Origin: Chytriomyces cf. hyalinus JEL632
Lineage: Eukaryota > Chytridiomycota > Chytridiomycetes > Chytridiales > Chytriomycetaceae
Assembly: GCA_025435555.1 (NCBI GenBank)
Contig: JAIWWG010000020.1
Span: forward strand, 310,001-374,000
Direction: 5' to 3'
Length of the DNA: 64,000 nt
A program made the translations under genes and the position numbers. The notes beneath the pieces were generated by a model, which did no database searches, was not told where the DNA came from, and saw only the letters and a list, made by a program, of their open reading frames with translations. Shown piece by piece: positions 39,330 to 55,235 of this stretch (its first letter is position 1; each line of letters begins with the position of its first letter).

Positions 39330-42300
39330 TTATTTCGAATCGGCGTGATACACACCGTTCCAGTCATCGGGAGGAGGTTCTATGCGGTACATCATCGCCC
39401 GCTCCAGCAGCGCCAGACTGGGCCCATCGTCCTTAGTCGATCGAAGTGCCTTTGAAAAGCATTCAATGGCCTGGTCAAACGCTCTCTCTCTGAACACCTT
39501 AAGCCCAAATTCAAAGTACTCCAACGTGGCAGCCATGGACGCGCTCAACTCGTCGCCCTTCCTACCCAACAGTTCGTAAATGCTGACCTTGTTGCTCTTC
39601 CCCTTCACCACGACTGAATCGATTTCGCGGATGATAAAATTGTCTCCGATTTCGTTTACCGTGTGCTCTGTGATGAGGATCGTGACGCCGTACATTTTGG
39701 TCATTCCTTCGATTCTTGAAGACAGGTTTACGGCGTCTCCTATGCAGGAGAACTCCATCCTCTTTAGAGATCCAATGTTACCTGAAAGTACCTGGAAGGG
39801 AAATTTGGTCGGTATGTCTGTTGTACATAGAGTGGAATATTATAGTACCATGCCCGTGTTGACACCAATACCCATTTTGATGGGATCTTGCCCATTGGGT
39901 ATCCGTACAGTTTCATTATATACCTGCAAGCTTTCCTTCATTCGCAATGCCGCACTGCACGCATGAATCGAGTCATCAGGGTTGACAAAGGGAACGCCAA
40001 AGACGGCCATGACAGCATCGCCAATGTACTTGTCCAGAATTCCTTGCTCCGCAACGATTGCATTCACAGCATCCGTAAAATGGTGGTTCAGCATCTCCAC
40101 GACCATATGAGGTTCCATCGATTCGGAGATTGTTGTGAAGGAACGAATGTCCGAGAACAAGATGGCTACTTTTTTCCTCTTTCCGCCGAGCTGACCCCCG
40201 TCTTCGGCCATCACTTGTTTCGCCAGTGCCGGTGACATGTATCGTCCAAGCGTCATGAGGGCTCGCTTTTCGGAACTAATGTCTTCGAGGACAATGACTA
40301 CGCCATGGCTTAAGCCCGTGATTCCTCCGCCACCCCCATTCCCACCAATGCCTGATGTGTCGTTGTTGTTTGTACTGCCCTCCGCCATTTGAACGATCGT
40401 ATAGTTGACGTTTTTGATCTTATTATTAATGCTGAGTTCATAGTCCTGTGCAAAGATGGTAGAACTGTCCGAGTTTCCCGAAAACGCGCGTTTAATGTCT
40501 GAAAGAAGAGTCGCGTTTTCAGCGCCAAGCCAAACTTCAAAATGCTGCTTCTTCAAAGCTTCCACGGCGCTGGCATCAAGATCCATTTTCTGAGGATGGT
40601 TAATATGCGACAGGTACCCGTTCTTGTCGAGTGTGATGACAACGTTGGTGATGGATTGGAGGATCATGGAGAGATAGTTTTTCATGTTGCTTGTTTCACG
40701 GAGCATGTCTTCGGTCTTTTTGAAGAGGTTCGAGTTTTCGATGGCCACGGCCGCTGTGTGGAGTGATGTTGCATTTAGAATAGCTTTTTTTTGTTTGGTG
40801 TGTTGTCACCTTGGGCCGAGAATGAAATCAACAGTTTTTCATCGTCAGCTTCGAAAGCGCCGACTTTCTTGTTAATCATTTGCGTGACGCCGATTGACTG
40901 TCCGCTAATGTTTCGAATGGGGATGCACAGCATGTTGCGCGTGATGTATCCCGTCTTTTTGTCCACATCGGGATTGAACCTGTGCATCGAATAAGTTTGT
41001 GAGAGAGAGAAAGAGTTAGTGAGTGAGTGAGTGAAGAGAATTCTGTTAGTGAGGAAGAGGATATATTACCTGGAGTCCTTGTAAGCATCAACGATATTCA
41101 CCGACTCTGGAACAGTGTGAGAACCAAATATAAATCATACTCCGAGGCAACTCACCTCCCGACGTGAACGCAAATCCGGCAATACCTGAGTTCATTGGAA
41201 TCCGGATCTCTTCAATCGAATCTCTCCCCTGGATATGAGCCTTCAGCTGCTTTGCCTTTGCGTCCGAAAGGAAAAGCGTGCATCGATCTGCCATCAAGAG
41301 ATCCTTTGCTGCGTCCATGATCCGCTTAACAAGTAAGTCCAGCTCCAAGGTGGATCCAAGTGAGCGCGTTGTTTCGAGCAGGACCTCGACCTTCTCCTGA
41401 GTCTTTTTGAGCCGGTTGTAGGTCTGCGCATTGCCAATGAGCATCCCTGCCAGCTTCCCGAGCGTTTTGAGCATAAATTCGTCCTCCTGGTTGAAAACAA
41501 TCGTGTTTCCGATTGGACCCGTCTTGTTGATGGCCGCCATGACGCCCTTCAAGACGCCATCTTTTGATGCCAGAGGCACGCACAGCATCGAGTTTGCAAT
41601 AACATTCATTCCGCGAATGTCAATGTCGTGCTCGAATCGCTCATGTCGGCTGGCATCCTTCAAGTTTACCGTTTCGAGTGTGGATCCAACCCAACCAACA
41701 ATACCCATGCCCATTGGGTACTTTCTCTCCTTGATCAGTTCCTTTTCTTTCGGATCCATGTACGGGTCAGAATCTGCTGCGTAAAAGTCTCCCGTCGCGG
41801 GATCCACGAGGTACAGCAGCAAAAGCTCGGCGCTCACCAAGTTCTCTGCCTCGTAAATAATTTGATCAAGTGCATACTCGGTATCCATTTCCAGACTAAT
41901 AAGCCCTCCCATTAATAGAATTTTGTCGACTTTTTGGAACAGCGACAGTAGATGCTTTACAATTTCGCTTCGAGCCGTCTTGTCCATTTTATCCAGTTGT
42001 ACCATGAAACGCGGGTCATAGTATTTCTGGAGAATACTCGTCGTCAGTGCTTCCGCTTCCAAATTGTCCATGCGTGAGTTGATGATGACGGCTGGAGCAA
42101 CGGAAAGACTTCGCTGAAAGTTGGGAGGCCGCACGTTGAGTTTCTCGTTTGAATCGCTCGATGTGACTTGCACGGAGATTTGTGGGCTGACTGCATCAGC
42201 GATGGAAACATTTGATGGGAATTCAATTGCAGGTTGGCATGAGTTCATGTGATCGTTGGACCCAGTTGCTTGAGAGAATGTTGGATGGGATGTGGTTGAA

Positions 42301-46440: not shown

Positions 46441-48458
46441 CTAATATGCCATTGCAACCAACAACACTGCAAACAAACTGACGGATGCTGAATGTCCTTT
46501 CCCGGCCTTTTTTGTTTCGACTGGTGCGGGAGTCGCTCCAGCTGCCACTGCATCCGGCGCAGTCAACGCGGGCGGAGTGCTTCCCTGCGGATACACAGCC
46601 ACAGCTACCCCAGCACCAACATTTGCAGCTTTACCAGAATCCGGCGCCACATAAATCGCATTTTTGGAAACTCCGTTCCCGTCCATTGCAGCAAACGATC
46701 CGGAAGTTGAAACAATCAACACCTTATACCCTTGGGGATAATGAATGGCCAGATTGGTTCGTATCTCCGTGATGCCTCCGACGTCAGTGCGTCCGTTGAA
46801 ATTATACTTGAGGATAAACACTTTGCTGGCATCTTGAAACTCCATGGAAACCGGTGTCCCTGCAACCGCATGCGCGTGCGTGCGACTCCAGATTACCGCC
46901 ATGTCAGCTCTAACTTTCCCTTCCTCATCCACGAGTCCGTCGTTTGTTCCGGTGATCATTTGTCCCTTGATGATGTATTCCTTGTATTCCCAGCCTGTCA
47001 TGGATAGCAGAAATTTGTCTGCGCTGACTGAGTACTTTTGGATTGCTGCTGCGCCCGTTCTTACACCCATTTCGTATTCTCCCAGAAATGTTCCGCATTG
47101 GAGTTCTTCGGCTGTTTGGATTCGATACCCAATCACCGTCTGTTGGCAAAGAATTCTTAACTTGCTTCAACACAATACCTTACGCTCTCTCATTACCTCA
47201 AGAGGGTTCGATTGCACCGTTTCATAGTAGTGGAAATTAAAGACAGTCTTGTTGCCGTACTGTGGGCCACCAGGGACCCTGCTAAAACCCGCTTTTTCTT
47301 GAATAATGGTGACTGACTCAAAATGAATGATTGCGTTGGGATCGATGCCTCTGAAAAAAGTTGAGGGATGGATGAAATGATGAATAAAATGGATCGCGAA
47401 AACAACACTTGAATGCCCACACACCTGATTCCCTCACTCACAGCCTCATAAAACGGTAGCAAATTATTCTCATTCGCATACTCAACATCCGACAACAACA
47501 CATTCGCAATAGCATCCCCATTAAACGGCTCATTCATGATATCATACCCCAGGATATTCTTGAACCCCAAAAACGCTTTTGCAACCACTTTCCAGTACTC
47601 GACAAACGCGTCCCGTTTCCCATCCACGTTTGAATACAAGTCTTGGAACCCGCGTTGTGTTTCTTTGGCGAAATGGTAGTATCCCCAGGGGAGTTTGAGG
47701 CAGTCCTCGTCGGAGGGGATTCCGGATGCGTTGAGTTTGTACGGTGGGCTGATGGGTGATGGGAAGCCGGACTGTTTGTTTCTTTTGTTAACTGCAAGAG
47801 TCTGATGCAGAGAATAAAACTCACGGCGCCAGTGTTTGGGTTCTCGATCCACAATGGAACACCTTCACCACAGTACTTTTCGCTCAACAAGTCTTGGTGG
47901 AAATCGAGGAGGACGTAGATTCCGGCGTCGCTGCACATTTGCACTATTTTCTTCATATCGTCCAGGTATGTTTGGTTGTATTGTCCACGAACTGGTTCAA
48001 CGCCTGGCCACATGATTCCTGTTTTTTCACGTGTTGAGCGGAGGTGGTTGTGGAAGATTAAAATGAAAAGATCAAGACTCTCACCAAGACGGATGGCAGT
48101 AACGCCGTGCTGCGATAGAACATCAATATCCCTCTGGTTGAAGGAATGTTTTGGTGGTGCGTCAGGCCGGGTGTCGGGGATGAACGGCGCAGTCTTGGCC
48201 ACAACGTTGGTTCCACTGGCGAAGCAGCCGTTTGCGTTGTGAGTATGCGTGTTCCAAAGGGTGCAAAACGGACGGAGCAAAGAATGGTGCGGGGTTTCAA
48301 GGGGCTGGCGCATTTCTGGAGGTGACGTACCGGAATATCCGGACTCGGCCGAGATCATCATACAAAAACTGTTTCTTCACAGACACGATACGGCTGACGT
48401 CTGGTACTTTCTGACAAACTGCAAGAGTGGACAGCAATGGCAGCCATGGCAGGATCAT
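46441..48458 (-). CDS. GH5 endoglycoceramidase-like glycoside hydrolase with C-terminal GPI-type signal
   Basis: Tandem paralogue of 44429-46379. The start at 48458 (MILPWLPLLSTLAVCQ) is a signal peptide. It is followed by VSVKKQFLYDDLGRVRIFR, then spliced GTNVVAKTAPFIPDTR, TAIRLG-IMWPGVEPVRGQYN, VLLDFHQDLLSEKYCGEGVPLW and the acid/base motif ILGYDIMNEPFNGD. The nucleophile Glu is in GTFLGEYEMG. The end differs from its sister: an Ala/Pro/Thr-rich spacer, a small-residue/basic stretch (KKAGKGHSA) and a terminal hydrophobic SLFAVLLVAMAY. That is a typical GPI-attachment signal, so this copy is probably tethered to the membrane or wall and the other released. Confidence 0.88.
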
Positions 48459-48870: not shown

Positions 48871-49443
48871 TTACTGCTTCAGCTTTTCGAACGCTTCAGC
48901 AAACAGAACGCGATCCCCATACGCGAAAATTCCAAACAACTCCAGCAGATCATCTACTGGAGTAACCAAGAGTACGGGTCCAGTCATTCGCCCAACTTTA
49001 GCAAGGAAACAAACATCAGCACCGACATTCTCCAATTCGAAAAAAAAAAACGAAAGGAACACACCCTGCACAACTGATACGACATCCACGCCCGCATCAC
49101 GAATCGAATTCCCACCATTCTTCAAAACCCAACACGCAACCTCTTCCATACCCCACAAGCTGGGTTCCTTGGCGTCCAACCCGTTCGTCGCAGCCACTGC
49201 CAAAACGCGTGCATGCAGTGATTCGTTTGACCGCTGCATAGCGCCTTCAGAAATTCTGCTTTCTTTGCGTTTCAGCAGCAGAGAGGTTCGCTGCGTCTGT
49301 TGTGAATACGTGTCGGAGGCGCTGATTTGGGCAATCGCGAGGGCTCGGAATAAATCGGAATCGCGTGTTTCCGTGTCAAGTGCGTTCAAATTGGCGAGTG
49401 TGAGAGGAGACGGAGATGCTGCTGAAGACCTACAGAATTGCAT
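48871..49443 (-). CDS. Small protein with SAM-domain-like C-terminus
   Basis: The start MQFCRSSAASPSPLTL at 49443 opens a Ser-rich helical N-terminus (about residues 1-90). Then comes SLWGMEEVACWVLKNGGNSIRDAGVDVVSVVQ, which resembles the first helices of a SAM domain (W..EEV..WL). A likely gtgtgt...ctaaag intron around 49066-48998 removes a poly-Phe read-through and joins to VGRMTGPVLLVTPVDDLLELFGIFAYGDRVLFAEAF. That supplies the long final SAM helix. Read without splicing, the frame is also open (190 residues). Role unknown; SAM domains usually mediate protein contacts. Confidence 0.55.
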   Translation of the reverse strand: MQFCRSSAASPSPLTLANLNALDTETRDSDLFRALAIAQISASDTYSQQTQRTSLLLKRKESRISEGAMQRSNESLHARVLAVAATNGLDAKEPSLWGMEEVACWVLKNGGNSIRDAGVDVVSVVQGVFLSFFFFELENVGADVCFLAKVGRMTGPVLLVTPVDDLLELFGIFAYGDRVLFAEAFEKLKQ

Positions 49444-49469
49444 TGGTTTTTGATGGTTTGCAAAAGGAA

Positions 49470-51493
49470 TTAAAACAAGAAACGCAACTGCAAAAATGAC
49501 GATGAAATGGGTCTCATGTTGAGAAAGTCTTGAGGCATGTTCGAAGTCTGCCCACTTAATTGAACGCTACTCGTCTCCGACATTCCAAGGTCAGAAAATG
49601 ATGACGAAGCAGACACAGACGATCCCAATCCGCGGCGTCGTCCTCTTCGAGACGTGCGTTCGCGAGCCACTCCATTTTCATCGAGACCCGCCTGAGAAGG
49701 TTCAAGAAACGTGGGCATTTCGGTCATGGGCGGGTTCGCATCACTTTTTACAATCCGTTTTCGGAAATACATGAGCCCAACGCCAGTGAGAACCAAGACT
49801 ACCAATGCAACGCTTCCAAAAGCGATTCCAATCAAGCGTGCGAAGTTTCCTGAAGGGGGTGCATTTGCTCCTGCGTCTGACAATGCGATGTCTGTCGCGG
49901 AAGCATTGGCGCGTCTCGGGCCCGTGAAGGGTTTCGGGCGAATGTTGCCCAACACGCCGCTCACATCATGCTGATACAAGACTGAAACACCGTTCAACCG
50001 ATCCAAATCGCCAGCCGGAACCACCGAAGATATGGCAAACATGTATTCGCCAGTTATATCATTCCCAGTCTTTCCGGTTCCAGAACTTGCGACGACTTTC
50101 GGATGAATCGCTGAAAAACTGATTTTAGACCACGCAGGTGCAGGCTCCATCAATACCACTTGTTTCCAGGCACTGTTTTTTGCGACTTGAATCGCATGTT
50201 GCGAAGTGGAAAATGCGGTTGTCCAAGCTTGGCCGCTGCTGTTTCTCCAAGCTGCAATTACGTCTCCATCCTTCATTGATGTGGATCCGACGCCAAAACC
50301 GGTCCAGCCTATAGCAGATGAGTGAATCGTGTAAACAAGGTTCGAGCCCGTATCCTGAGCAGACATGCAAAATCGTGGAGATTCAAAAGATGGATAGCAC
50401 TGCATTTCCGGATCGAGAGCTGCTGGTTGACCTTGGTCCGCTGGTGGGAAATCGGTAATTGATGTGCTGATGGAAACATTGGATAAGCCCGAAGCCACAC
50501 CCACTTCCAATAGTTTTGAAAACGCCAGTTTAAAATCCGAAAGGAATGCCGTCAAATTTGATGCGTAGTTTTGAACATGCGAGAGGTAGATGGGATCTTG
50601 CATGAGAGCCATATCGGATGGCAGCATGAAGCGACCAGAATTGTCTGAAAATTGCATCCGTGTTGTGTTATCGAGCGAAGTTATGGTTTCTTGGCGGTAA
50701 GTTGAGTTTTTGGTGAGCTGGGTGAAGTATTGGTTTGTGACGAACAACGGAGTTTGTGTCCAAGAGCCAACATAACCAGAGACATTGAGATGCGCGTTTC
50801 CTGTAGATTCTTTCGGAGTAAGTATGACGGATGATATACAGAAGAATGCGTACCCATGCAGTGAGCACCCATGAGCGCCACCGTTTCTTTGTCGTCCATT
50901 CCAATGCTGGAAAAAGCGTTTCTGATTGAAGCTGGATCCGCAGTTGGATTTGGCTGTATAGACACGTGATCGGATGTGCGAATCAGTGCATCGCTGCGAC
51001 CAGGACGCCAGTTGATTGTTGGTCCCCCCGAGTTGGAGACAGCGACAGCTGCTGCGTAGGACCACAAATCGGCGTGCGTGATTCCAGCGTGTTTCTTGTA
51101 GATATATTCGAGTAGTTGGATTGTTGTTGAATTATCTGCGTATGAGTTCAAAGACAGAGTTGTGAGCGAGGTTACAATTGTTGAACACAGGCAGCCCCCA
51201 CCTCCCAGACGCAACTCAGCATGCGGTCCTCCAGCGCTCGATGCGTCCAACCACGCCAGCTGTACGACCGCCGGTGCATGGCCTCCCTGGACAACGGTGT
51301 TGTACACGTCAAAACGCAGGGCGTCCCACGCAGCGTCGGTCATGTTGTTGGTGTAGAATGGACTCCACTCAGGGCCATCTCGTGCATGCAAACGGACCGG
51401 GTCTTCTCCCTTCGATGGCGCTGACGTTGCGTACGGACAAGCGTGAGTGATCCGCAGCACAAGCAACAACCCAAGCTTGTTGATCATTTTCAT
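49470..51493 (-). CDS. Secreted/membrane heme-peroxidase-like protein (CCP/APX type) fused to DOMON domain and TM helix, distal catalytic residues lost
   Basis: Signal peptide MKMINKLGLLLVLRITHA at 51493. The peroxidase domain follows: APAVVQLAWLDASSA stands where active enzymes have the Arg-x2-Trp-His motif (RLAWH). Then a short gtgggg...acgcag intron joins LRLG-DNSTTIQLLEYIYKKHA. Proximal side: VALMGAHCMG-NAHLNVSGYVGSW keeps the heme-ligand His and the Trp, and FMLPSDMALMQDPIYL keeps the Asp. A DOMON-like domain follows (GWTGFGVGSTSMKDGDVIAAW...; candidate heme ligands Met in FCMSAQD and His in YQHDVSG). Then come a TM helix (LIGIAFGSVALVVLVLTG) and a Ser/Arg-rich cytosolic tail. Distal Arg and His are replaced by Gln and Leu, so ordinary peroxidase chemistry is unlikely. 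The start lies 53 bp from a divergent GH35 gene. Confidence 0.85.
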
Positions 51494-51546: not shown

Positions 51547-54500
51547 ATGAAGAACCTCTTCACAGCCACGGCGACGCTGACCCTCGCAGCGACACTCACA
51601 AGTCTTTATGTTCTCATCAAAACGCTCAAACATCGCCGCCGCCGCCGCCAGCTGGGCTCTCTGAACGTGACCTCGCGCAGTGTGGCGCACAAGAGCCGCG
51701 TTGTCGACTGGGACAGACACTCGCTCGTCATCAACGGCGTCCGAACAGTCATCCACTCGGCAGAGTTCCATCCCTGGCGCATCCCAGACAGAGACAGGTG
51801 GCGACGCGTGCTTCTTTTGTTCAAGGAGATGGGCTTCAACAGGTGAACCCCGAATGTGTGCGAGTCCTTGTGAATTATGCTCTACTGACCCCTTTTGTTT
51901 GCACGGCTGGCTGCGTTTAAAAGTATCCGCATTTACTTCCACTGGGGCTTCCACTCGCCAAAAGAAGGCGTTTATTTGTTCGACGGAAACAGAGACATGG
52001 ACTACCTGCTGGCCCTGTGCACGGAACTGCGACTGTTTGTTCTGGCTGCGCCGGGTATTTTTTTGTTGTTTCCTGTTTGCACGTTCCTGTCAACCCGCCG
52101 AATCCAATTTATTCATCCGTGCCCGAACAATTCGCCACCATCAGGTCCATACATTTGCTCAGAAACACAGGCAGGCGGTCATCCCACATGGCTCGTTGCG
52201 AAAAAGCATGTTCGAATAAGGCATTCCCGCGCCACGTTTGATAAACCTTTCGACATTGAGGTGATTTACATCCAACAAGGGTGACCCCCTTCACAACTAA
52301 ATTTTTCCCCTCAAAAGTACTCGAAATACTGCCGCGAATGGCTTCTCGAAATCCTACCCATCATTGCTGCCCACCAAATCACATATCCGACCGTGGCGAA
52401 CAATGCGAAACAACCGCACCCTCACGGTTGTGTCATTGCGCTTCAAATCGAAAACGAAAACTTTGAAACGTTCAAAGGGATCCCGGTTGGCAGTGCTGAT
52501 GATATGCGATACCTTGCCCGTGTTGCGCGTGAATGTGGAATCACGGTTCCCTTGTTCCACAACGACGGGTTTGAGGTGAATTATAAAGAAATTATTGATC
52601 TGGAATCCTTTGTTCACTTTTCTTTCTTGTTACAGGAAGGGTCGTGGGTGTCGCATGAAGTTCCACAAACAGAAGCTGGTGTTCCCACGTTCGGTCTCGA
52701 TTTATACGCATTTGACAAGTATGTTGTGTTTTGCCCAACGAGCACACCGCAATCGCTTTATGTGGATCCTGGCGCAAAGGGACACGTGCATGCGTGGAAA
52801 GATTGGGAGCCTGCTACAGTTGTACATGCAATGGATTCCATGGAGCGTAAAGTTCGCGAATTTGGAGGATGTGCTGCCACGGGACCTCTGTTTATTGCCG
52901 AATTGCAAGGTGGATGGTTTAACCACTACATGCTTGGATGCTCTTATGACACAATCTATGAGTTGAGTTTGCATTTTTTTTTCCTTGTTCGCGTCAACTC
53001 ATTGGTGCGCGTTTTCTCAGTTACTACGGTGAAGATTACACTCGTCTCGTATATGAAAGCAGTCTTGCTCAAGGAGTTAGTATTCTGAACCTATACATGG
53101 CGTATGGAGGCACAAACTGGGGTACCCTTGGTGACCCAGATGTCTACACCTCGTACGATTACAGTGCATGTATCCGAGAATTCATGTACCTCAGTGGACG
53201 CGGGAGAAAATTGCGCCAGGCGCTAGCTTTTTCGAGAAGTTTTGGCGGATGCGGCGAAGTGGCTGTGACTCAGCCGATTCAAAAACGAGACAGCCTGTTT
53301 ATCGCGAAACCAGACGGTGTCTTGAACATGGATAGACGCAAACTTGTTAAAGGAGGTGGAGCAACTGTGGAAGGCGGTGTTTTGTTTTATCGAAACTTTA
53401 GCAACTCTGTCGAGTATACTTTGACGCTCTGCGAGAGACCCGGTGTTGTGTTGAATGGATCGCTTGCGCTTAAGCGGTCTTTTGTTGGATTGTATGGGTA
53501 CACTGTTTCTGGAGATGGCGAATGGTTGGAGCTTGTTGCTGCAACGCTGCCAGTGATTGTCAAGACGCGCGTGCTGGTTGACGAACGCGAAATTGAAGTC
53601 TGGGTCGTTCAGAATGAAGTTGGTTTCGTGAGTGGAGAACTCGCTTTCGATGGACCAGAATTGGAAGTTTTGGAACAAGGCGGTCCACTTTCCCCACACA
53701 TTCAAGTAATCCGCGATGAAACCAGCATTGTGAGTTTCGGAGGTAGCCAAGGATGGTGCAGTTTGGGACGGCAGGGGAAAGTGGAGCTGCTGATTTTGGC
53801 GTTGAATGAGCAAGATTTGTTTACGCTTGTACCCACGTTTGAGGATCCGCATTGGTTTGATGCGGGTGTCGATGATGTGTATGGGGCTGCTGCGAGTAGG
53901 GATCCTGTGAGTTTGGCGTGGGGTGTGTACGGCGTGCAGCATGATATTAAGGCGAAGCGGATGGATATTGAATGGCTGCATGATGAAGAGTCGTGTTACT
54001 GTCTGTTTTCAGCTTCTGCGCAGGTGCATGGAACGTTTGGATTCGAGCCGCTTTCGAAAAAGACGGATGCGAAATTTCCACACTTTGGATTACCGGGGCT
54101 TTTGGTCAAACGTCGTCATGCGAAAACGGCTTCCACGTTGACTCGACTCGAAAATTTGACGACGGCTGCGAGCAAAGCGCCCAGTATTGGCACATTCCAT
54201 TCGTGGAAATCTCGAACTACAGATTATGAAACTCTGCCGTGGGTTCCGTTGACGCTGACTGGTGCAGACAACACGGTCCCTTCACTCGACACGGTTGATC
54301 TTGGATACACGTCTGGCCATGTTCTGTACAAACTCGTGCTGCCAAAAAGGCACCCGAAAAGGGCACCCTCCGACTTTAAGATCCGCCTCAACATTCGCCA
54401 TCGCGCAATCCTGCACCTCAACGGAACTCATATTCTGGGCGGACACACAACGTACGGTCACCGCCTTCTCAAGCCGGGTTCGAAGCAGGGCCCCGACCCG

Positions 54501-55235
54501 TTCCGCGACACGCACGAATACACTGTCCCTGCAGCGTTGCTCAATATGGAAGGAGACAATATTGTATACGTGATTATCGAAAGCTTTGGATTGAGTCGGC
54601 AGGCGTTTGTATTGAACGATGTGCGGAGTCCACGCGGCATTGTGAATGTAGAGTTGTTTGCGGTTGGCCAGTCGATTGTGCCGTGGCGTCAGACACGCTT
54701 GCTTGATTTTGGGTTGTTTATTGCTGGAGTTGATGTGAAGGAGTTGGACCAGCCATTCAATGTGTGCGGGTTTCCAGATGAATTCAGTGTGGATGGATGG
54801 ACGGCTGTGAAACCTGGTGGTGTTTCCGGTGGCGAAGTTGTACTTCGAATGGATGAAGGGTACATGCCAAAGTGGTTTGAAGGAGTCATGAAGATGGAAG
54901 ATGCGTTTGTTGCGAGCATGACGGAAGGTGGTATGATGCCGGTACGGTTCCACATGAAGGGGCCTGCCACGGCGCATATCTGGGTAGACGGGATTTATTT
55001 GGCACGGTACTATGGAAACGGAGACTGTGTGCAGCGAGACTTTTATGTGCCAGATACGTTTTGCTGGAAGAGTGGGTCTTTGGATGTAAAAGTGTTGGTG
55101 TATGATGGAAGGGAAGGGGCTGATTGGGTTTCAATGGATGTGAGGGGGTGGTCGATTTGCAAGGATTGGAGTGGGAATGTTCTTGATGATGAGGCAGGGC
55201 AAGTGTTTTTCAGTGCAGTGGAGAAGCTGGGCTGA
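51547..55235 (+). CDS. Beta-galactosidase, glycoside hydrolase family 35
   Basis: Predicted to release terminal beta-galactose. The N-terminus (MKNLFTATATLTLAATLTSLYVL then HRRRRRQ) is a signal anchor or signal peptide. The GH35 barrel begins with FHPWRIPDRDRWRRVLLLFKEMGFN and SIRIYFHWGFHSPKEGVY. The acid/base Glu is in GCVIALQIENENF, and the nucleophile Glu is in LFIAELQGGWF. MAYGGTNWGTLGDPDVYTSYDY is the other family signature. C-terminal beta-rich and jelly-roll domains fill the last exon (53097-55235). At least six exons in the N-terminal third, with introns at about 51843, 52055, 52257, 52577, 52963 and 53078. Length about 1,050 residues, within the eukaryotic GH35 range. Exact borders of the short middle exons are uncertain. 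Confidence 0.88.

Follow-up and report, generated by a model that had tools for sequence, protein, structure and literature searches.

A membrane-anchored class I peroxidase fold without its distal arginine and histidine, fused to DOMON-like and SAM-like domains: a possible surface receptor in a chytrid fungus

The window (the whole stretch of DNA that was analysed, 64 000 nucleotides from Chytriomyces cf. hyalinus JEL632) carries a minus-strand gene for a membrane protein related to cytochrome c peroxidase (CcP). The distal residues of its heme pocket are replaced and the proximal ones are retained. What such a protein does at the cell surface is the question raised by this locus. The original prediction was an extracellular heme-based electron carrier or sensor and not a peroxidase. 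The gene model, the domains, the relatives in the same genome (37.8 Mb, 242 contigs) and the published relatives were used here to choose between these roles and others. The genome also encodes a chitin synthase (PF01644) and the cilium-linked family PF13868 (TPH), as would suit a flagellated fungus, probably a chytrid.

The extent of the gene was worked out by comparison with a close copy on contig C31. Window and C31 DNA were 89% identical in the tail region, where conserved blocks were parted by diverged stretches fitting introns, with compatible phases and GT-AG ends. The gene had been predicted to span 49470..51493. The end at 49470 was rejected because that stop sits inside the third of the introns listed in Table 1, and two more exons extend the gene down to 48871. 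Exons 1 and 2 are joined inside the proximal motif (MGAHCMG, then NAH). The signal peptide and the transmembrane helix (TM) were called by eye. The protein is 814 amino acids long as an open model and 792-797 amino acids long after removal of a 66- or 51-nt in-frame intron. The ~17-22 residues following GGPHAELRLG are probably such an intron, because this insert is present in the window row alone among nine aligned sequences, contains the frame-breaking indels of the C31 copy and is taken out by a spliced aligner. A GH35-like gene lies upstream in opposite orientation (52285-55235, +) and GH5-like pieces lie downstream on the same strand (46441-48361, -). An adenylate/guanylate cyclase catalytic domain (PF00211, 1.8e-16) was found at 39843-40805 (-).

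Table 1. Features of the gene model, in window positions
Feature	Positions	Strand	Basis or remark
Exon 1: from the signal peptide to MGAHCMG, including the distal half of the class I peroxidase-like domain	50854..51493	-	Splice joining, Pfam, structure search, C31 comparison
Distal motif QLAWL (RLAWH in CcP)	51248..51262	-	Alignments
Probable in-frame intron	51136..51201	-	Variants of 51, 66 or 75 nt, all ending at 51136; open if unspliced
Intron, 53 nt, GT-AG	50801..50853	-	Splice joining, C31 comparison
Exon 2: remaining (proximal) half of the peroxidase-like domain, then DOMON-like domain, TM and start of cytosolic tail	49489..50800	-	Splice joining, C31 comparison
Conserved Trp (VGSW), equivalent of the CcP proximal Trp	50760..50762	-	Alignments
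Conserved Asp (LPSD), partner of the proximal His	50613..50615	-	Alignments
DOMON-like domain with invariant Met and C-terminal His	49944..50405	-	Pfam, alignments
Single transmembrane helix	49770..49835	-	By eye
Intron, 59 nt, GTTGCG..CTGTAG, containing the stop at 49470	49430..49488	-	C31 comparison
Exon 3: cytosolic tail and first part of SAM-like domain	49065..49429	-	C31 comparison, spliced alignment
Intron, 69 nt, GTGTGT..CTAAAG	48996..49064	-	C31 comparison, spliced alignment
Exon 4: remainder of SAM-like domain and stop	48871..48995	-	C31 comparison, spliced alignment

The window protein matched the peroxidase family PF00141 at 3e-31 (109.5 bits, cut-off 27). Its best match among solved structures was CcP (4.4e-35, residues 64-316), so the predicted class I, CcP-like alignment runs along the domain from end to end. 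In this alignment QLAWL lies opposite RLAWH. The distal Arg is thus replaced by Gln and the distal His by Leu, and the distal Trp is kept. The proximal His (MGAHCMG), the Trp of GSW and the Asp of LPSD are in register with CcP and are invariant in all nine aligned sequences, as is a His in a GG-x-HA motif after the distal helix. Both the proximal retention and the distal change had been read correctly in the original prediction, and the change is repeated in the C31 copy. Judged by its sequence, the domain is a homolog of the class I peroxidase fold; it is not filed as a peroxidase because of the two distal replacements. The second-best structure match was 5ccp, which we take to be the engineered H52L mutant of yeast CcP, and its aligned row has Leu at the distal His place, like the window protein.

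An engineered enzyme gives some guide to how such a pocket handles H2O2. In the available text of PMC3733812, the apparent rate of reaction with H2O2 was 1.1 per M per s for CcP with Arg48, Trp51 and His52 all changed to Ala, and its peroxygenase activity rose ~30-fold. The comparison is partial because the window protein keeps the distal Trp. By analogy with this mutant, the window protein should be a poor peroxidase.

The genome gave 42 matches to PF00141 and 35 to the window protein. Eight copies share the order peroxidase-DOMON-TM-SAM in spliced models, which are our own spliced alignments predicted from the genome sequence. The distal motif reads QLAWL in the window and C31 copies, RQAYA at C191:236.5k, RLAYA at C191:233.8k and C191:230.6k, HQAYG at C191:176.8k, HQAYA in the C111 copy and RRAWH in the C189 copy. 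The search for other QLAWL members, run in this genome, therefore returned the C31 copy and five more His-less copies with other motifs. The distal His is lost in seven of the eight DOMON-fused copies (six of seven if C31 is not counted separately), and C189 alone keeps a complete distal set. A SAM-like tail accompanies all eight; that of C31 lies behind an insert of ~5.7 kb, and that of C189, which carries PPEY, was read by eye across an intron. At C191:230-232k a single open frame of 730 amino acids runs from the proximal peroxidase half through DOMON and TM to the tail, so the fusion does not depend on predicted splicing. The predicted fusion of peroxidase and DOMON domains with a TM anchor was accordingly borne out by the spliced model and the paralogs, the helix being called by eye.

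Among peroxidase loci with a readable motif and no DOMON domain, the distal His is kept in 14 of 14 (C165, C191:227k, C50, C156, C177, C112:273k, C239, C189:215k, C38:63k, C112:284k, C27, C62, C134 and C173, with C27 and C62 looking like near copies). This count leaves out C186 (pieces on two strands), C38:59k, C210 and further C134 stretches. C165 and C191:227k read RLAWH, and C191:227k finishes with a Ser/Thr-rich stretch and a hydrophobic terminus resembling, by eye, a GPI signal. The interval C191:227000-239000 is a tandem array in which this RLAWH peroxidase with a GPI-like end stands beside three His-less peroxidase-DOMON-TM-SAM genes. At C186:195516-198908, distal-half and proximal-half peroxidase pieces occur on opposite strands, and the locus looks rearranged or broken. 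In trees, the His-less copies fell on one side of a weakly supported branch (78/81; also 69/59 and 64/51). Constrained trees that placed the window pair with C189 gave a p-AU of 0.09, and those that placed C189 with the C191/C111 group gave 0.365. These values bear on whether the distal His was lost once or twice, and neither number is favoured here. A scan of bacterial and archaeal genomes gave six loci; the four of them read whole all have RVAWH and, by eye, ankyrin-like repeats. Planctomycete and myxococcal MAGs thus contain class I peroxidases with RVAWH followed by apparent ankyrin repeats (by eye).

The distal loss was checked for error and decay with the C31 copy. The Leu of QLAWL is encoded by CTG in C31 and by TTG in the window, a synonymous difference. 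Sequencing error at the distal motif, which would have undone the original prediction, is ruled out by this second QLAWL. Window and C31 differ by a dS of 0.20 and a dN of 0.027 (Nei-Gojobori, custom script). Their overall dN/dS ratio is 0.133; taken part by part, it is 0.021 for DOMON, 0.119 for the tail and 0.177 for the peroxidase domain. Three C191/C111 gene pairs gave 0.062-0.083 for DOMON, 0.131-0.162 for the peroxidase domain and 0.139-0.234 for the tail, rough figures because several dS values exceed 1. By these ratios the His-less peroxidase domains are under purifying selection, and the distal loss is therefore neither error nor decay; a pseudogene is ruled out by the overall ratio and by the constraint in the other His-less copies. 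The C31 copy is split between its DOMON and tail parts (C31:19343-25043), with AACATT at both borders, as after insertion of a mobile element. The copied block on C31 also takes in the GH35-side neighbour.

The second extracellular domain was assigned with less strength. In the window protein the match to the DOMON family (PF03351) fell short of the 32.7-bit cut-off, at 15.9 bits (E 0.016), and in five paralog proteins it reached 17.2-27.8 bits. In the genome scan, the paralog at C191:231478 scored 33 bits with neighbours in frame included. The assignment is fair rather than strong. Met and His are the heme ligands in DOMON cytochromes. The candidate ligands Met44 and His146 of the DOMON-like domain are invariant in seven of seven aligned copies (C31 being outside that alignment). 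Of the predicted DOMON domain with Met/His ligand candidates, the candidate residues are thus well upheld and the domain call is held back by the window score. The C-terminal His also aligns with that of other DOMON proteins encoded in this genome, which appear by eye to be linked to b561. The DOMON profile found no DOMON structure among solved structures, a same-genome DOMON sequence found nothing relevant there, and neither structure search gave a cellobiose dehydrogenase match. A structure prediction of the DOMON domain alone had a pLDDT of 33 and was not usable.

The cytosolic tail, a feature absent from the earlier reading, was identified from its relatives. When a profile of 11 tails, including that of the window, was compared with solved structures, SAM domains came first, with whole-sequence E values of 8.3e-7 for liprin-beta-1 (a sum of two stretches, the best single one at E 0.019), 9.6e-5 for PHC3 and 1.1e-4 for SARM1. 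One tail searched alone against solved structures found none. In Pfam searches of six tail-bearing sequences, a SAM family was the best match in five (E 0.0017-0.071) and absent from one, and none of the six passed the cut-off. The window tail alone gave no Pfam match at E up to 1. In the multiple alignment it shares 33-36% identity with the C191/C111 tails. The C-terminal part of the window protein is thus called SAM-like, through spliced and multiple alignment.

A tail of this kind is found on other proteins. Searching the genome with a C191 tail (six-frame, without introns, E up to 10) gave 14 places, five of which are the C191/C111 genes. The window tail was not among these 14; its split exon is hard to find in such a search. 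The other places adjoin unrelated ectodomains, each with one hydrophobic segment by eye: Cys-rich on C75 and C123, short on C46 and C162, and possibly leucine-rich on C180. In 13 of the 14 loci the SAM-like domain is followed by a C-terminal PPxY, and the remaining locus has LPAY. The 14 loci sit on contigs C191, C111, C75, C180, C162, C123 and C46. Two other tails gave 49 and 35 genome matches at E up to 0.1, some shared with PF00536 places. Taken together, these sequences possibly form a modular receptor-like repertoire, in which a shared SAM-PPxY tail is carried by apparent single-pass membrane proteins with unrelated ectodomains. The window copy stands outside the PPxY pattern. No PPxY was found before its stop or in the frames just downstream that could continue the tail, and a further PPxY exon beyond the GTAAGT at the stop was sought downstream and not found.

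These observations are best joined in a receptor-like surface protein that crosses the membrane once, combines a signal peptide, a disarmed class I peroxidase fold, a DOMON-like domain, a TM and a SAM-like tail, and works by heme sensing, a reading to which we give about an even chance. It starts from this architecture, the distal replacements, the retained proximal His-Asp-Trp, the conserved DOMON Met and His and the purifying selection, all read from sequence. The peroxidase fold would hold a heme that is ligated by His and open on its distal side. Lacking the distal acid-base pair, this heme would no longer form compound I efficiently and could bind NO, O2, H2O2 or another small ligand of this sort, or report redox state. 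A DOMON heme may exchange electrons with it and set its redox state. The signal would then cross the membrane as altered SAM-mediated assembly. In the C189 member (RRAWH), the same anchor and tail may be joined to a peroxidase that remains catalytic. Against the receptor reading stand the window tail without a Pfam match and outside the 14 places, the two-stretch sum behind the best SAM structure match, the single tail that matched no structure, the DOMON score below cut-off, the DOMON profile that met no DOMON structure and the missing PPxY. The broader proposal, a new class of fungal surface receptor with a two-heme extracellular sensor, one helix and a cytosolic SAM assembly domain within the modular SAM-PPxY repertoire, is put forward more tentatively, as slightly less than an even prospect. 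The SAM-like tail opens the function to direct test, by following SAM assembly against ligand or redox change in the ectodomain.

The distal residues, lost and variable among copies (Q/R/H, W/Y, L/A/G), would also suit a pseudoenzyme receptor in which the peroxidase fold has no working heme and serves as a scaffold for a polymer, peptide or other molecule, with heme in DOMON or in neither domain. The receptor-like tail common to proteins with unrelated ectodomains fits this as well, and APX-L/TL29 is a heme-free yet functional peroxidase fold (PMC8069737, in its available text). Such a scaffold is nevertheless unlikely: all nine aligned sequences retain the proximal His, Trp and Asp, whereas APX-L is by definition without the proximal His in that account. 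An altered enzyme is similarly doubtful. The protein would be a slow peroxygenase, a peroxynitrite isomerase or a nitrite/NO-converting heme protein fed by DOMON, its SAM tail serving for clustering or sorting. The retained proximal side and DOMON ligand candidates agree with this, as do the ~30-fold higher peroxygenase activity of CcP mutants with an apolar distal pocket (PMC3733812, available text) and the peroxynitrite decomposition by the Leishmania major pseudoperoxidase, as cited in PMC12398798; however, the distal positions differ among paralogs, unlike a conserved new active site.

The carrier half of the original prediction fared worse than its other parts. That the protein is no ordinary peroxidase was upheld, the distal His loss extends well beyond the single gene first read, and the sensor option gains from the SAM-like tail. 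A surface carrier that passes electrons through its two hemes from external donors to external acceptors would use the retained DOMON Met/His and proximal Trp, but it would have no use for a SAM-like cytosolic tail, and the protein has a single TM, no membrane heme domain and no known partner. Since it has one TM and no b561-like membrane heme domain, unlike the same-genome DOMON proteins that look b561-linked by eye, electrons cannot cross the membrane through it. A receptor or sensor is favoured over a free electron carrier because of the cytosolic SAM-like domain, and the carrier is improbable. Sequencing error or a decaying gene is scarcely credible: the interrupted C31 copy shows that copies do break, but it has the same motif with a synonymous codon difference and a low dN/dS overall, and five further copies are also His-less with constrained domains.

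Among known systems, yeast CcP (class I, PF00141; including PDB 5ccp) is alike in the whole-domain alignment, the proximal His/Trp/Asp and the distal Trp. The window protein differs from it by Gln and Leu for the distal Arg and His, by being secreted and membrane-anchored and by its fused DOMON domain and SAM-like tail. The DOMON cytochromes (DOMON-b561 and the cytochrome of cellobiose dehydrogenase) share a DOMON-like domain with conserved Met and C-terminal His, but the window protein pairs this domain with a peroxidase fold and a single plain TM helix instead of b561 or a flavin dehydrogenase. Fungal hybrid B heme peroxidases are likewise fungal, secreted and multi-domain (PMC5571214, PMC8945051). 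In the available text of these papers they keep the distal His and have WSC or carbohydrate-binding partners in many members, whereas the window protein is CcP-like with a distal Leu, and its Pfam scan gave no WSC or carbohydrate-binding family. Plant APX-L/TL29 is a class I relative that has stayed functional after losing catalytic residues; according to the same partial source (PMC8069737), it lost all key residues including the proximal His and has no heme, whereas the window family keeps the proximal triad. The Leishmania major pseudoperoxidase is a peroxidase relative with a role other than H2O2 peroxidase. It is likened here through the citing descriptions in PMC12398798 and PMC12285341, whose available text mentions neither DOMON nor SAM.

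Loss of the distal His per se is not unheard of, because sequences without essential residues were set aside, and peroxidase-like domains without both histidines mentioned, in the available text of PMC4232752, and because charophyte sequences with distal His changed to Asn are reported in that of PMC8069737. A partial literature search (titles and abstract openings) gave no peroxidase-DOMON or peroxidase-SAM fusion among the matches listed. What is apparently new, with no counterpart found in that partial search, is an expanded DOMON-TM-SAM family that retains the proximal triad but has largely lost the distal His. Its His-less copies beside one member with the full distal set offer a natural series for how an enzyme becomes a receptor. 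In the available text of a 2017 survey, the distal histidine was apparently invariant in all known sequences of the superfamily (PMC5571214); here, in contrast, most members of an expanded family under constraint are without it and have the proximal heme ligand in place.
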